Positions 15,088-39,819 of a stretch of DNA of 64,000 nucleotides are shown here, one piece after another. Source of the DNA: Telmatospirillum sp. (GTDB lineage: Bacteria; Pseudomonadota; Alphaproteobacteria; CACIAM-22H2); the NCBI GenBank assembly GCA_020248985.1, contig JADCGL010000030.1:62001-126000 (forward strand), in the 5' to 3' direction. Both the position numbers and the translations under genes were made by a program. The notes under the pieces were generated by a model. The model did no database searches. It saw nothing but the letters and a program-made list of their open reading frames with translations, and had not been told where the DNA came from. Positions within the stretch are counted from its first letter, which is position 1. Each line of letters starts with the position of its first letter.

Positions 15088-16197
15088 ATGTCGCCAAGCA
15101 ATCTCACCGACGACGAGCGCTGCCAATGGCTGCGCTTGATCCGCACCGAGAATGTCGGCCCCATCGCATTCGGCCAGTTGCTGGGCCGCTACGGCAGCGC
15201 TGCCGCGGCCCTTGCCGCCATCCCCGACCTCGCAAGCCGCGCCGGCAAACGCAGTATCCGCGTAGCCTCGCTTGCCGAAGCGCAAGCTGAAATCGCCGCG
15301 CTGGCCAAGCTCGATGGGCGTTTCGTCGCAATTGGCGAACCAGACTATCCGCCGCTGCTGGCCGAAATCGAAGATGCCCCGCCGCTGCTGGCCGTACGCG
15401 GCTTTGCGCATGTGTGGAAGCGCCCGTGCCTTGCCATTGTGGGGGCGCGCAACGCGTCGCTGAACGGCCAGCGCTTTGCGCGCGAATTGGCGCAAGAACT
15501 CGGCGAAGCCGGTCTTACGGTCGTTTCCGGGCTCGCGCGCGGCATCGATGCGGCCGCCCATGCGGGTGCCCTTGCGACCGGCACCGTCGCCGTGATGGCC
15601 GGCGGCATCGACCATATCTACCCGGTCGAGAACAAAGAGCTCTATGGGCGGATCGCCGCCCAAGGGGCGGTCGTGTCGGAGATCCGCCTCGGCGAAGTTC
15701 CGCAAGCCCATCATTTCCCGCGTCGCAACCGGATCGTCTCGGGCATCTGCCGCGGCACCTTGGTCATCGAGGCGGCGTTGCGCTCGGGCTCGCTGATTAC
15801 GGCACGCCTCGCGGGCGAGCAGGGCCGCGAGGTTTTTGCCGTGCCCGGCTCGCCGCTCGATCCGCGCGCACGCGGCGCCAACGCGCTGCTGCGCCAAGGC
15901 GCAACGCTCGTGGAGACCGCCCAAGACGTGCTCGAGGTGCTGCGGGGAATGCACCTCGAATCACCTAAGTTTTTACCTGAAAAATATTCATCAAGTGTCT
16001 ATAAAATATCAGAAAAAGAAATATGGTCAGCGCGCGATTCCATCTACCAAGCCCTGGCCCCGTCGCCGACGTTAGTTGACGAAATCGTGCGCGAGTGCCA
16101 ATTGTCCGCCCCCGTCGTCCTGGCCGCCTTGCTCGAATTGGAGCTTGCCGGCCTCGTCGACAGACATCCGGGCGGCCGGGTTTCGCGTCGGGTTTAG
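15088..16197 (+). CDS. dprA: DNA-processing protein DprA
   Basis: 369-residue DprA/Smf, which loads RecA on incoming single-stranded DNA during natural transformation. An N-terminal helical region (to about 70) precedes the Rossmann-like core with AIVGARNASLNGQRFA, VVSGLARGIDAAAHAGAL, MAGGIDHIYPVEN, FPRRNRIVSGI and GSLITARLAGEQGREVFAVPG. A C-terminal winged-helix domain (about residues 310-369) ends in HPGGRVSRRV. The linker between core and winged helix, encoded around 15960-16030, is strikingly AT-rich with codons such as TTT, AAA, TCA and ATA, unlike anything near it. The frame stays open across it. Confidence 0.95.
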   Translation: MSPSNLTDDERCQWLRLIRTENVGPIAFGQLLGRYGSAAAALAAIPDLASRAGKRSIRVASLAEAQAEIAALAKLDGRFVAIGEPDYPPLLAEIEDAPPLLAVRGFAHVWKRPCLAIVGARNASLNGQRFARELAQELGEAGLTVVSGLARGIDAAAHAGALATGTVAVMAGGIDHIYPVENKELYGRIAAQGAVVSEIRLGEVPQAHHFPRRNRIVSGICRGTLVIEAALRSGSLITARLAGEQGREVFAVPGSPLDPRARGANALLRQGATLVETAQDVLEVLRGMHLESPKFLPEKYSSSVYKISEKEIWSARDSIYQALAPSPTLVDEIVRECQLSAPVVLAALLELELAGLVDRHPGGRVSRRV

Positions 16198-16252
16198 CGA
16201 AAATCAGCCGGTCGGTACGGCAGAAGGCGCGATCGCGCCGACAGGCAGGCGG

Positions 16253-18919
16253 ATGAAGCTCGTTATTGTGGAATCGCCGTCGAAGGCGAAAACCATCAAC
16301 AAATATCTCGGCGACGAATATCGCGTCCTCGCCTCGTACGGGCATGTGCGCGATTTGCGCGAAAAAGACGGCGCGGTCGAGCCCGACCGCGACTTCGAAA
16401 TGCATTGGGAAATCGGCGAACGTGCCAAAAAGCCCGTTTCCGAAATCACGCGGGCCCTCAAGGGCGTCAAGACGCTGATCCTGGCGACCGACCCCGACCG
16501 CGAGGGCGAGGCGATTTCCTGGCACCTTAAAGAAGTGCTGGCCGCCGCCAACAAGCTTAAAGACGTCGATGTGCGCCGCGTCGTGTTCAACGAGATCACC
16601 AAGACCGCGATCCTCGAGGCGATGCGCCATCCGCGCGACCTCGACCGCGATCTGGTCGATGCGTATCTCGCCCGCCGCGCTCTCGATTTCCTCGTGGGCT
16701 TCAACCTGTCGCCGGTGCTGTGGCGCAAGCTGCCGGGCAGCCGGTCGGCTGGCCGCGTGCAGTCGGTCGCATTGCGGCTGATCTGCGAACGCGAGAACGA
16801 AATCGAGCGGTTCCGCGCGCGCGAATATTGGACGATCGGTGCGCAGTTCACCGCCAAGGGCGGCGAGAAGTTCGAAGCGCGTTTAACCCAGCTCGACGGT
16901 GCCCGCCTCGACAAGTTCGACATTGCCAACGAAGCCGCCGCCCAAGCCGCGGTCGCCAAAATCGAAGACGGCGATCCCTTTACGGTCGCGAGCGTGGAGC
17001 GCAAGCGCGTGCGGCGCAATCCGATGGCGCCGTTCACGACCTCGACGCTGCAGCAGGAAGCCTCGCGCAAACTGGGCTTCGGCGCCTCGCGCACGATGCG
17101 CCTTGCCCAGCAGCTCTACGAGGGCTTCGACATTGGCGGCGAGACCGTGGGCCTCATCACCTACATGCGTACCGACAGCGTGACGCTGTCGGGCGAAGCG
17201 GTGCGTGCTGCCCGCGCGCTGATCGCCGAACGCTTCGGCAAGAAGTTTCTGCCCGAGCAGCCACGCATCTGGAAGACCCAGGCAAAAAACGCGCAGGAAG
17301 CCCACGAAGCCATCCGCCCGACCGACCTTCTGCGGCGCCCTGATCAGGTCGCGCACGCTCTTGCGGACGACCAGCTCAAACTTTATGAGCTGATCTGGAA
17401 GCGCACGATCGCCTCGGAAATGGAGAGCGCGCAACTCGATCAGGTCGCGGTCGATCTCGCCTCGCCCGACGGCCGCACGGTGTTGCGCGCGACCGGCTCC
17501 ACGCTGGTTTTCGAAGGTTTCCTCGCCCTCTATCGCGAAGATCGCGACGACCCGACCGAAGGCGAAGACGACGAAAACCGCCTGCTGCCGGCCCTTGCCG
17601 AAGGCGACGCGACGCCACGTGGGGCGATCAAGCCCGAGCAGCATTTCACGCAGCCGCCGCCGCGTTTTTCCGAGGCGAGCCTCGTCAAGCGCCTCGAAGA
17701 ACTCGGCATCGGTCGCCCCTCGACCTACGCCTCGATCCTCGAGACGCTGCAGGAGCGCGGCTATGTGAAGCTCGACAAGCGCCGCTTCACGCCCGAAGAC
17801 CGCGGCCGGGTTGTGACGACGTTCCTCGAAAACTATTTCAAGCGCTATGTCGAATACGATTTCACGGCCAAGCTCGAAGACCAGCTCGATGAGATTTCGG
17901 GCGGCCGTGCGGACTGGCGCAAGGTGCTGGCCGATTTCTGGAACGCCTTCTCGAAATCGATCGCCGACACCAAAGACCTCAAAATCCGGGACGTGATCGA
18001 CGCGCTCGACGAAGCGCTCGGCCCGCATTTCTTCCCCGACAAACTGGGCGGTGCGGATGCGCGCGGCTGCCCCGCCTGCTCGGGCGGTCGCTTGGGCCTG
18101 CGTCTTGGCAAGCGCGGTGCGTTCATCGGCTGCTCGAACTATCCGACATGCAGCTTCACGCGGCCTTTGACGGTCGATGGCGGCGACGGCGAGCAGACGG
18201 GGGGTGTCGCCAACAAGGTCATCGGCGTCGATCCCGAGACCAAAGAAGAAATCCATCTGCGCAACGGGCCGTTTGGGCCGTATGTGCAGCTCGGCACTGG
18301 CGGCGAAAAGGTCAAACCGAAGCGCCAATCGGTGCCCAAAGATATGAAGCCCGAAGACGTAACCCTCGAAGTCGCGCTGAAGCTTTTGTCGCTGCCGCGC
18401 TTGGTCGGCACGCACCCCGAAACGGGCGAAACGATCCTCGCCGGGCTCGGCCGCTTCGGGCCGTATCTGAAACACGGCGAGAAATACAAATCGATTCCGA
18501 CGACGCAAGACGCGCTCGAGATCGGCCTCAATCGCGCGGTCGACGTGCTGGCCCAACCTTCGACCGGGCGGCGCTTCGGCCGTGCCGCCGCCCCCGCCGG
18601 GCGCGTGGTCGGCAACCATCCGGACGACAACGCGCCGATCACGGCCGCCGTCGGCAGCTACGGGCCGTACGTCAAACACGGCAGCACCTACGCGAACCTG
18701 CCCAAAGACATCACGCCCGAAGAAGTCACGCTCGAAGACGCCGTGCGCCTCATCGCCGAGCGGCGTGCACGCGCGGGCAATACACCCACGCGCAAAAAGG
18801 CCGTCGCCAAGAAGGCCGCGAAGCCGAAAGCCGAGAAGCCGAAGGCCGAAAAGCCCAAGGCCGAAAAAGCAGCGCCGAAGCCCAAACGCGCCAAGAAGCC
18901 TGCTGCCGCCGAGCAGTAA
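16253..18919 (+). CDS. topA: DNA topoisomerase I
   Basis: 888-residue type IA topoisomerase relaxing negative supercoils. The Toprim domain starts at the N-terminus (LVIVESPSKAKTINKYL) with the acidic triad in ATDPDREGEAISWHL. The active-site Tyr lies in GLITYMRTDSVTLSG. One C4 zinc ribbon is visible (CPACSGGRLG ... FIGCSNYPTC) and is followed by three C-terminal repeats marked GPFGPYVQLG, GRFGPYLKHG and GSYGPYVKHG. The protein ends in a Lys/Ala/Pro-rich tail with the repeat KPKAE. This repeat-plus-tail layout is usual in alphaproteobacteria. Start at the ATG before KLVIVES; the frame extends upstream into dprA only as a shadow. Confidence 0.97.
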   Translation: MKLVIVESPSKAKTINKYLGDEYRVLASYGHVRDLREKDGAVEPDRDFEMHWEIGERAKKPVSEITRALKGVKTLILATDPDREGEAISWHLKEVLAAANKLKDVDVRRVVFNEITKTAILEAMRHPRDLDRDLVDAYLARRALDFLVGFNLSPVLWRKLPGSRSAGRVQSVALRLICERENEIERFRAREYWTIGAQFTAKGGEKFEARLTQLDGARLDKFDIANEAAAQAAVAKIEDGDPFTVASVERKRVRRNPMAPFTTSTLQQEASRKLGFGASRTMRLAQQLYEGFDIGGETVGLITYMRTDSVTLSGEAVRAARALIAERFGKKFLPEQPRIWKTQAKNAQEAHEAIRPTDLLRRPDQVAHALADDQLKLYELIWKRTIASEMESAQLDQVAVDLASPDGRTVLRATGSTLVFEGFLALYREDRDDPTEGEDDENRLLPALAEGDATPRGAIKPEQHFTQPPPRFSEASLVKRLEELGIGRPSTYASILETLQERGYVKLDKRRFTPEDRGRVVTTFLENYFKRYVEYDFTAKLEDQLDEISGGRADWRKVLADFWNAFSKSIADTKDLKIRDVIDALDEALGPHFFPDKLGGADARGCPACSGGRLGLRLGKRGAFIGCSNYPTCSFTRPLTVDGGDGEQTGGVANKVIGVDPETKEEIHLRNGPFGPYVQLGTGGEKVKPKRQSVPKDMKPEDVTLEVALKLLSLPRLVGTHPETGETILAGLGRFGPYLKHGEKYKSIPTTQDALEIGLNRAVDVLAQPSTGRRFGRAAAPAGRVVGNHPDDNAPITAAVGSYGPYVKHGSTYANLPKDITPEEVTLEDAVRLIAERRARAGNTPTRKKAVAKKAAKPKAEKPKAEKPKAEKAAPKPKRAKKPAAAEQ

Positions 18920-29201: not shown

Positions 29202-30353
29202 ATGACGTTGATCACCGAGTCTGCAGCTCTCGCGGCATTTTGCGCCAAAGTCTCCACGTCGAGCTACGTAACGGTCGACACGGAGTTCATGCGCGACCGG
29301 ACCTATTATCCGCAGCTCTGCCTCGTCCAGGTGGCGGGGCCCGACGATGCGGCCGCCATCGACGCGCTCGCGCCCGGCATCGACCTGTCGCCGCTGCTGG
29401 CCCTGATGGACAATCCGGCGATTCTGAAGGTTTTCCACGCCGCGCGCCAAGATCTTGAGATTTTCTACAATCTGACCGGCCGCGTGCCTACCCCGCTGTT
29501 CGATACCCAGGTCGCGGCCATGGTGTGCGGCTTCGGCGACCAGGTCAGCTACGAGACCCTGGCCGCCCAATTGTCGCGCGCGCGCATCGACAAATCCGTG
29601 CGGTTTACGGACTGGGCGCAGCGCCCGCTCTCCGAGCGCCAGGTCACCTACGCCCTGTCCGACGTCACGCATCTGCGCCCCGCCTACGAGGCTTTGGCGC
29701 GCAAACTGGCCGCCAACGGCCGAGCCGGCTGGCTGCAGGAGGAAATGGCCACCCTGCTGGACCCAGCGACCTACCGGCTCGATCCCGAGGAGGTTTGGCG
29801 ACGCATGCGCCCGCGTGGGGCGAAGCCTAAGTTCCTGGCGATCATGAAAGAGGTCACGGCGTGGCGCGAACGCGAGGCCCAGCGCCGCGATACGCCGCGC
29901 AACCGCGTGGTCCGCGACGAGACCATCCTGGACCTCTGCGCCCATGCGCCAACCACGCTCGACGAGCTTGCACGCATGCGTGGCCTCTCGAAGAACTTCG
30001 CCGATGGCCGTCTCGGCCAGGAATTGCTCGATGCCGTAAAGCGGGGTTTGGCCATGCCGCAAGCCGAAATCCCGACCTTGCCGGACAGCCCGGACCTGCC
30101 ATCGGGCCTTGGGCCGATCGTCGAACTGCTCAAAGTTTTGTTGAAGATGAAGTGCGAAGAGCATGGTGTCGCTCAGAAACTTGTTGCCACTACGGCTGAA
30201 CTTGAGCGTATTGCAGCTAGCGACGACGATACCGGCATCCCGGCCCTGCAAGGCTGGCGGCGCGAGGTCTTCGGCAGTGCCGCCCTCGACCTCAAGGCAA
30301 GCAAACTCGCCTTCACGCTGAAGGGAAAAAAGATCGTTCTATTGAAACTATAA
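29202..30353 (+). CDS. rnd: Ribonuclease D
   Basis: 383-residue DEDD-type 3'-to-5' exonuclease acting in tRNA 3' maturation. Exo I is TVDTEFMRDRTYYPQLCLVQ, Exo II is LKVFHAARQDLEIFYN, and Exo III is QVTYALSDVTHLRPAYEAL. An HRDC domain covers about 210-290, including NRVVRDETILDLCAHAP. It is divergent from aspS. The last 70 codons use noticeably more AT-ending codons than the rest, and the gene is followed by an AT-rich 60-bp gap to the convergent TPR-methyltransferase gene. Confidence 0.95.
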   Translation: MTLITESAALAAFCAKVSTSSYVTVDTEFMRDRTYYPQLCLVQVAGPDDAAAIDALAPGIDLSPLLALMDNPAILKVFHAARQDLEIFYNLTGRVPTPLFDTQVAAMVCGFGDQVSYETLAAQLSRARIDKSVRFTDWAQRPLSERQVTYALSDVTHLRPAYEALARKLAANGRAGWLQEEMATLLDPATYRLDPEEVWRRMRPRGAKPKFLAIMKEVTAWREREAQRRDTPRNRVVRDETILDLCAHAPTTLDELARMRGLSKNFADGRLGQELLDAVKRGLAMPQAEIPTLPDSPDLPSGLGPIVELLKVLLKMKCEEHGVAQKLVATTAELERIAASDDDTGIPALQGWRREVFGSAALDLKASKLAFTLKGKKIVLLKL

Positions 30354-30377
30354 TTTTATTTCAGATGCTTATATGTC

Positions 30378-30402
30378 TTTTCTACCGTCCTAGTTTAGAA
30401 AA
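30378..30402. other. AT-rich inverted repeat between convergent genes
   Basis: TTTTCTA (30378-30384) and TAGAAAA (30396-30402) form an inverted repeat around an 11-base loop in the 59-bp gap between rnd and the convergent methyltransferase gene. The stem is weak, so a terminator role is only a guess. Confidence 0.25.
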
Positions 30403-30412
30403 AATCCAGGAT

Positions 30413-39676: not shown

Positions 39677-39739
39677 TGCGGTCGTCTCAGGTTCACGTTT
39701 GGCATGATTGCCAAATTCATATTCTTATCATGCGCGTCT

Positions 39740-39756
39740 ATTTGCAAAATGCAAAT
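39740..39756. promoter_or_regulatory. Palindrome 1, putative operator
   Basis: ATTTGCA-aaa-TGCAAAT is a perfect 7-bp inverted repeat. Its centre is 24 bp from that of the second palindrome, about two helical turns, and both have the same TTTGC/GCAAA edges. This looks like a pair of sites for one dimeric regulator. The regulator is unknown. It lies 64 bp upstream of the minus-strand 48-residue ORF. Confidence 0.5.
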
Positions 39757-39764
39757 GAATTTTT

Positions 39765-39779
39765 CCGCAAAATTTGCGG
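39765..39779. promoter_or_regulatory. Palindrome 2, putative operator
   Basis: CCGCAAA-a-TTTGCGG is a perfect 7-bp inverted repeat sharing the GCAAA core with palindrome 1. It lies 40 bp upstream of the imuA -35 box. Confidence 0.5.
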
Positions 39780-39819
39780 TCCATTTAGATTTTAGGTAAT
39801 GCTTGATGCCCGGAAGCGC

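Follow-up and report, generated by a model that had tools for sequence, protein, structure and literature searches.

Previously, dprA, smg and topA of Neisseria meningitidis were found by RT-PCR to be co-transcribed, a software prediction placed a promoter in mid-dprA, and a dprA null mutant still made TopA, from which the authors inferred independent transcription (PMC5817196). The accessible part of that report also states that representatives of 14 out of 24 phyla have dprA and topA co-localised (PMC5817196). This dprA-smg-topA cluster is the closest precedent for the locus analysed here, and, given its co-transcription, most topA mRNA could arise without a separate start. The two loci are alike in having dprA upstream of topA and a predicted promoter in mid-dprA; they differ in that N. 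meningitidis is a betaproteobacterium and has smg between dprA and topA. The codon imprint, the winged-helix element and the AT-rich linker found here are without a counterpart in what the accessible part of that report gives for N. meningitidis (PMC5817196).

Transcription start site data have shown that the most frequent spacer of sigma-70 promoters is 17 bp, that T at position -7 is missing in more than 60% of the sigma-70 promoters of the alphaproteobacteria analysed, and that promoters without this T are over-represented before essential genes (PMC8407463, accessible text). The element described below is similar in its TTG in the -35 hexamer, its 17-bp spacer and its lack of T at -7, and a CarD-family protein is encoded in the genome. 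Unlike the promoters of that study, both hexamers here lie inside the upstream gene and shape its codons, the CAATTG is far from TATAAT, and the start is predicted. A promoter of Mycobacterium tuberculosis recX lies inside recA (PMC3062782), and the transcription start sites of Caulobacter include an 'internal upstream' category (PMC4287350). As given in the accessible parts of these two sources, they resemble our case in that a downstream gene has its own start within the preceding gene, whereas the dprA/topA element is class-wide, is imprinted in the codons and is accompanied by an AT-rich linker island in the genus of the source genome and in another family (f38). Judged by title and the opening of the abstract, no paper found in the literature describes an internal topA promoter in alphaproteobacterial dprA or a dprA linker rich in AT. 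The accessible part of a list of E. coli promoters had no bearing on a topA promoter in dprA (PMC3946193).

The window, i.e. the whole 64-kb stretch of DNA that was analysed, carries the genes pyrB, pyrC, plsY, dprA and topA in a row on the + strand (names from NCBIfam matches). The features of the dprA-topA region are the following.

15088 to 16197 including the stop, + strand: dprA, encoding DNA-processing protein DprA, the host gene (NCBIfam TIGR00732 above cut-off; Pfam DprA_N, DNA_processg_A and DprA_WH).

15959 to 16024, + strand: AT-rich island with GC 0.23, located in the linker that joins core and winged helix, the proposed AT-rich upstream part of a topA control region.

15977 to 16007, + strand: weak promoter-like match CTGAAA-N19-TAAAAT (CTGAAA-N17-TATAAA also present), no TTG in the -35.

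16076 to 16081, + strand: TTGACG, the proposed -35 hexamer of a topA promoter, in codons GTT GAC GAA, identical in every one of the 9 genus genomes that gave a DprA match.

16099 to 16104, + strand: CAATTG, the proposed -10 hexamer, in codons CAA TTG, after a 17-bp spacer and with no T at -7, likewise identical in 9 of 9.

16111 to 16252, + strand: predicted leader from the start placed by spacing (about 16111) to the topA ATG.

16253 to 18919, + strand: topA, encoding type I DNA topoisomerase, the proposed target gene (TIGR01051, E 5e-235, above cut-off).

Our analysis confirmed that dprA contains an AT-rich island. The preliminary description had reported an AT-rich stretch, with the frame intact, in the linker joining the DprA core to the winged helix, and both the place and the frame were borne out: the Pfam matches cover residues 84-286 (core) and 325-373 (winged helix) of the 379-residue query, with the linker between them. 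The GC content of dprA is 65% and falls to a minimum of 0.28 in 75-bp windows and to 0.23 over 15959-16024. In a 464-kb sample (about 11% of the genome; home-made gene caller, window counts approximate) the fully coding 66-bp windows had a mean GC of 0.656 (sd 0.058), and the next-lowest of the 404,533 windows had 0.38. A 400-kb sample of the congener G003 gave 0.39 for the dprA linker, and two windows of other, AT-richer genes were lower (0.32). The linker GC of 0.34 compares with 0.50 expected from the same residues and the codon use of the gene (z -5.7), so amino-acid choice alone is insufficient for the low GC. The residues are shifted too, as 0.50 is expected from the linker residues against 0.68 for the remaining gene. 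The claim that the island uses rare codons held for TTT, ATA and TCA (relative use 0.26, 0.03 and 0.04), to which TTA (0.01), CCT (0.10) and AGT (0.09) can be added, but not for AAA (0.63); TAT (0.87) is not rare in the genome either. The folding of the island did not differ from that of its own shuffles (z 0.29); these keep the AT content, so the comparison leaves AT-caused weak structure uncovered.

In total 11 genomes of the genus (g1), including the source genome, were available, and the nine loci with a DprA match (L005-L013) were compared. Downstream of the island these loci share the conserved letters GTTGACGAAATC and CAATTGTCC, and at 16078 the same residue is encoded by the same codon with a frequency of 0.92 versus 0.55 across dprA (8 genus genomes). 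The element codons, 16075-16107, encode the winged-helix residues V-D-E...Q-L. Synonymous change is nearly absent in the winged helix of the three closest genomes (2/55, 2/52 and 4/52 same-residue codons), and this continues over the gap and into early topA. As the dearth could partly be due to recombination or slow topA evolution, a codon test across the class was used instead. Among 362 sites scanned in 106 high-GC loci from outside the genus, the most enriched codons were GTT at 16075 (67/82, 11.7 expected) and TTG at 16102 (52/67, 10.4 expected). In the 118 topA-adjacent loci outside the genus, GTT was found in 72/88 (14.5 expected), GAC in 104/116 (67.2), GAA in 86/100 (48.3), CAA in 51/56 (20.8) and TTG in 59/76 (12.3), and the codons between the hexamers reached z 3.4 at most. 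Both hexamers are imprinted in the codon choice of the topA-adjacent loci.

The pattern TTGACG-N17-CAATTG occurs once on the + strand of the 464-kb sample, and an extended version of the pattern has a single occurrence in the source genome. Two blocks 17 bp apart correspond to the layout of a sigma-70 promoter. The -35 hexamer contains TTG, and the -10 hexamer, about 17 bp further on, has A in second place. All 97 loci of this first type have TTGACG, though they were chosen for TTGAC, and the codon enrichment is the independent test of the hexamer. At N17, CA comes first in 90 of the 97 loci; a codon for Q or H also dictates CA, and the codon enrichment therefore weighs more. CAATTG (41/97 loci) is little like TATAAT, and T stands in the last place in 1 of 97. 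Based on this layout and on the codon imprint, we consider it quite likely that the element is an alphaproteobacterial sigma-70 promoter for topA inside dprA. Since CAATTG is a poor match to TATAAT, it is possible that the conserved letters form a protein-binding site instead. A second-type site, TTGACA (17 loci) or TTGACT (5), lies 26 bp further downstream in 22 loci, of which 7 also have the first element and 15 do not. In 17 of the 22, CATTTT follows 17 bp after this hexamer. The codons are uniform here as well (L147, L163, L166, L171, L229, L230 and others), with ACC at T in 13/13, ATT in 13/15 and TTG in 15/15. In the predicted leader region, no Rfam match was found up to E 1 in 15900-16400, and the folding of 16111-16270 was not unusual (z -0.37).

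Additionally, we determined whether the element goes together with topA being the next gene. DprA was matched at E 1e-60 in 274 of 337 genomes of the class, and 100 loci were taken among the matches listed. The class-wide comparison comprised 187 loci, and topA within 200 bp was counted as adjacent. Partial matches (L026, L217, L218), second copies (L206, L207 and L214 of L176, L178 and L220; L035 of L007) and a weaker second match in a genome already represented (L124) were excluded. L119, L122, L123 and L219 were retained though the gene start is missing, and L013 and L146 were too short downstream for the topA test. Leaving out Bartonella, the loci outside the genus whose downstream sequence was long enough had a TTGAC element at either of the two places in 102 of 118 adjacent cases versus 4 of 20 non-adjacent ones (Fisher p 5e-9); 16 adjacent loci have neither element and 4 non-adjacent loci have TTGAC. 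All 8 testable genomes of the genus have both adjacent topA and the element, and all 39 Bartonella loci lack both. In the 20 non-adjacent loci the element codons are unbiased (z at most 1.9; commonest residue, 7-20 loci per site). When ancestry is counted, the evidence from this count is weakened: on a tree, only 5 supported independent pairs differed in adjacency, and among these the element changed with adjacency in 4.0 and against it in 0.0 cases on average (median sign-test p 0.125); starting from the element, 6 pairs gave 4.1 and 0.0 (p 0.125).

We then compared the linker composition with the presence of the element. A dip of at least 0.25 below the core was taken as strong and a retrieved stretch above 0.58 GC as high-GC. 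Of the 80 high-GC loci that combine the first element with adjacent topA, 22 had a strong linker dip, and none of the remaining 34 high-GC loci did (p 1.9e-4, which ignores ancestry); these 34 comprise 15 second-type loci, 8 adjacent loci lacking an element and 11 non-adjacent loci. The 22 dips are limited to a few clades, namely g1, family f38 and four single loci; in genus g44 of that other family the linker dips in 7 of 7 loci. As 58 of the 80 element-bearing loci have no strong dip, the island is not needed for the element, and the linker dip is a recurrent but optional companion of the putative promoter. When the loci are averaged within g1 and within f38, GC reaches its minimum in both groups in the 20-bp bin 61-80 bp before the start of the -35 (g1 value -0.423). 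Several further comparisons were negative. A trade-off across the class between AT-rich dips in the linker and in the gap, which had been expected from the first family comparison, was not found (rho -0.16, p 0.13, n=89; +0.07 without g1). Helical phasing of A/T tracts gave a combined p of 0.0035 in g1 but 0.90 in g44 and is not used as support. In genome G000 the AT-rich gaps were not clearly promoter gaps: among gaps of at least 70 bp, a window below 0.42 occurred in 20/52 divergent gaps, 15/70 co-directional ones and 4/11 convergent ones.

Low GC in the linker is a persistent property of the genus. In all nine loci the linker is 30 aa long and contains the most AT-rich window of the gene. 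Its GC ranges from 0.36 (L005, L007) up to 0.62 (L011, a weak case in which the lowest window of the whole 4-kb locus lies outside the linker). The island sequence itself is not conserved: nucleotide differences in the linker amount to 0.31-0.33 within the closest trio of genomes and to 0.48 between L005 and L008, and 60-bp windows drop to 38% identity against L009. Since the nucleotides have diverged and the low GC stays in most linkers, the composition looks maintained rather than like a fading import. The preliminary description had offered a small in-frame insertion of foreign DNA as one origin, and named tandem repeats or mobile element scars at the borders as a check. Composition alone speaks for such an insertion; the equal length and place of the linker in 9 of 9 genomes, the lack of any second copy in the source genome beyond matches of 14-20 bp and the lack of repeats bracketing the island (short two-copy repeats were the only ones seen) speak against it. 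A recent event of this kind is refuted, and an insertion as such is barely credible. On the evidence of the nine genomes, the AT-rich linker is a long-kept feature of the genus and not recently inserted foreign DNA. An explanation without any function of the DNA, in which free residues, weak codon selection and AT-biased mutation together produce the island, agrees with the linker being the fastest-evolving part of DprA (amino acid differences among the three closest genomes: linker 0.40-0.53, core 0.07-0.10, winged helix 0.00-0.05), with the absence of sequence conservation in the island and with the AT-richness ending where constrained residues begin. Yet DNA between called genes has a mean GC of 0.574, far above the 0.23 of the island. 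From 100 reciprocal ortholog pairs between the source and congener samples, 99 genes gave usable windows, and in 15 of these identity was 65% or less in some internal 22-codon window; of these 15 genes dprA had the lowest GC (0.26) and the next gene 0.47, and the mean of fast-evolving coding windows was 0.62-0.64 in the two main bins, dprA windows included. Five full-length loci from other genera of the family (L014-L017, L021) keep linkers at 0.72-0.77 GC, and the partial or further loci L119-L122 have minima of 0.54-0.66, although L123 (genus g4) dips to 0.44. The strong dips are, moreover, confined to loci with the first element and adjacent topA. We regard a relaxed linker as unlikely, although it deserves to be kept in mind.

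Selection at the level of protein or translation, in which the codons and the polar residues (K, E, S, N, Y) would slow the ribosome or provide a flexible charged linker, fits the position of the island at a domain boundary. Ranked by its poorest 22-codon window, dprA comes second (window from 15964; 133,344 windows sampled), the poorest being a proline-rich run. Against this, both residues and codons shift to A/T, more than codon speed would require, and AAA, GAA and TAT in the island are not rare codons. Codons and residues also both vary among the genomes of the genus, and in the other genera of the family the linker is about as long (27-30 aa in the five full-length loci) and mostly GC-rich. 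The slow-translation or weak-structure segment suggested earlier became less likely, since the residues shift too and other fast-evolving segments have near-normal GC, and we judge a protein- or translation-level cause to be improbable. A second topA promoter inside the island, upstream of the first and with a start near 16012, would correspond to the match at 15977-16007. The best match begins in one shared alignment column in L005, L006, L007 and L010 only, with scores of 11.4-13.6 against a 99th percentile of 9.7 in 2,839 coding windows. In this position-matrix scan, 200 shuffles per locus gave p values of only 0.025-0.08. The best spacing is 19 in L005 and L006, and in L008, L009, L011 and L012 the best match lies elsewhere, as it does in L013, where a slightly different stretch was scored. 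No TTG occurs on the + strand of the island in the source genome, and a standard promoter scan found nothing in the island. Such a second promoter seems very unlikely.

Of the options in the preliminary description, a regulatory element inside the gene is the one that the evidence favours, with the correction that the conserved core lies outside the stretch described at that time, about 50 bp downstream, and is a stronger feature than the island. According to our preferred explanation, the island would be the AT-rich upstream segment of a topA control region kept inside dprA, and the core promoter TTGACG-N17-CAATTG at 16076-16104 would lead to a transcription start near 16111. Within the pyrB-pyrC-plsY-dprA-topA row, topA would in this way have a transcript of its own. 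Some 50 bp separate the -35 from the island upstream of it, and the island falls in the part of the protein that varies fastest, where selection for AT could have a low cost. Its AT-richness may help the promoter through bending, through binding of RNA polymerase or of a nucleoid protein, or as a weak second start site. UP elements, curved DNA and nucleoid-protein sites are AT-rich sequences upstream of core promoters, and the classic UP element lies at about -40 to -60. The island is farther out, at about -152 to -87 from the predicted topA start, and the 20-bp segment of g1 that directly precedes the -35 is GC-rich (+0.066 relative to the core). The source genome encodes GapR- and MucR-family proteins, without a tie to the island, and a 210-aa frame with a CarD-family match; GapR and MucR bind AT-rich DNA in other alphaproteobacteria. 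We infer that the hexamers are a promoter, that the start lies at the predicted site and that the island serves this promoter. For the island as part of the topA promoter region the chances appear about even, and we give the whole explanation, upstream arm and embedded promoter together, an equal chance of being right or wrong on the sequence comparisons made.

Some other AT-rich stretches were observed. In L014, L015, L016, L017 and L021 a dip (66-bp GC 0.24-0.36) is located either in the last part of dprA or between dprA and topA, and none was found in g1. Within the window, an AT-rich intergenic stretch at 39739-39804 (GC 0.30) contains the palindromes TTTGCAAAATGCAAA and CCGCAAAATTTGCGG, and a stretch with GC 0.24 lies at a gene border at 30340-30405. 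AT-rich stretches in the source genome (L098:6294) and in a congener (L107:9571) share TATATAGTTTATTTTTGATAATATACATTATGACATTA and may belong to a conserved promoter region; gene calling classed the former as wholly and the latter as mostly non-coding. A de novo search for promoter motifs, done with a home-made EM on 358 upstream stretches from two genomes, gave no usable motif.

TopA and gyrase together set the balance of DNA supercoiling. It is conceivable, with odds that we place somewhat below even, that in most Alphaproteobacteria with adjacent genes topA is driven from dprA winged-helix codons that are under two constraints, and that in some lineages the free linker serves as an AT-rich upstream sensor for topA, responsive to supercoiling or to nucleoid proteins. 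Some residues of the DprA winged helix would then perhaps also be held by this dual constraint. If the topA promoter does lie within dprA in many Alphaproteobacteria, disruptions of dprA could alter topA expression and confound studies on transformation and recombination, and transcription, not translation, would account for the codons used in a conserved domain. The linker would illustrate how a free stretch of protein can host regulatory DNA, and the locus would offer a testable answer to the question, raised in Neisseria, of how topA is expressed apart from dprA.
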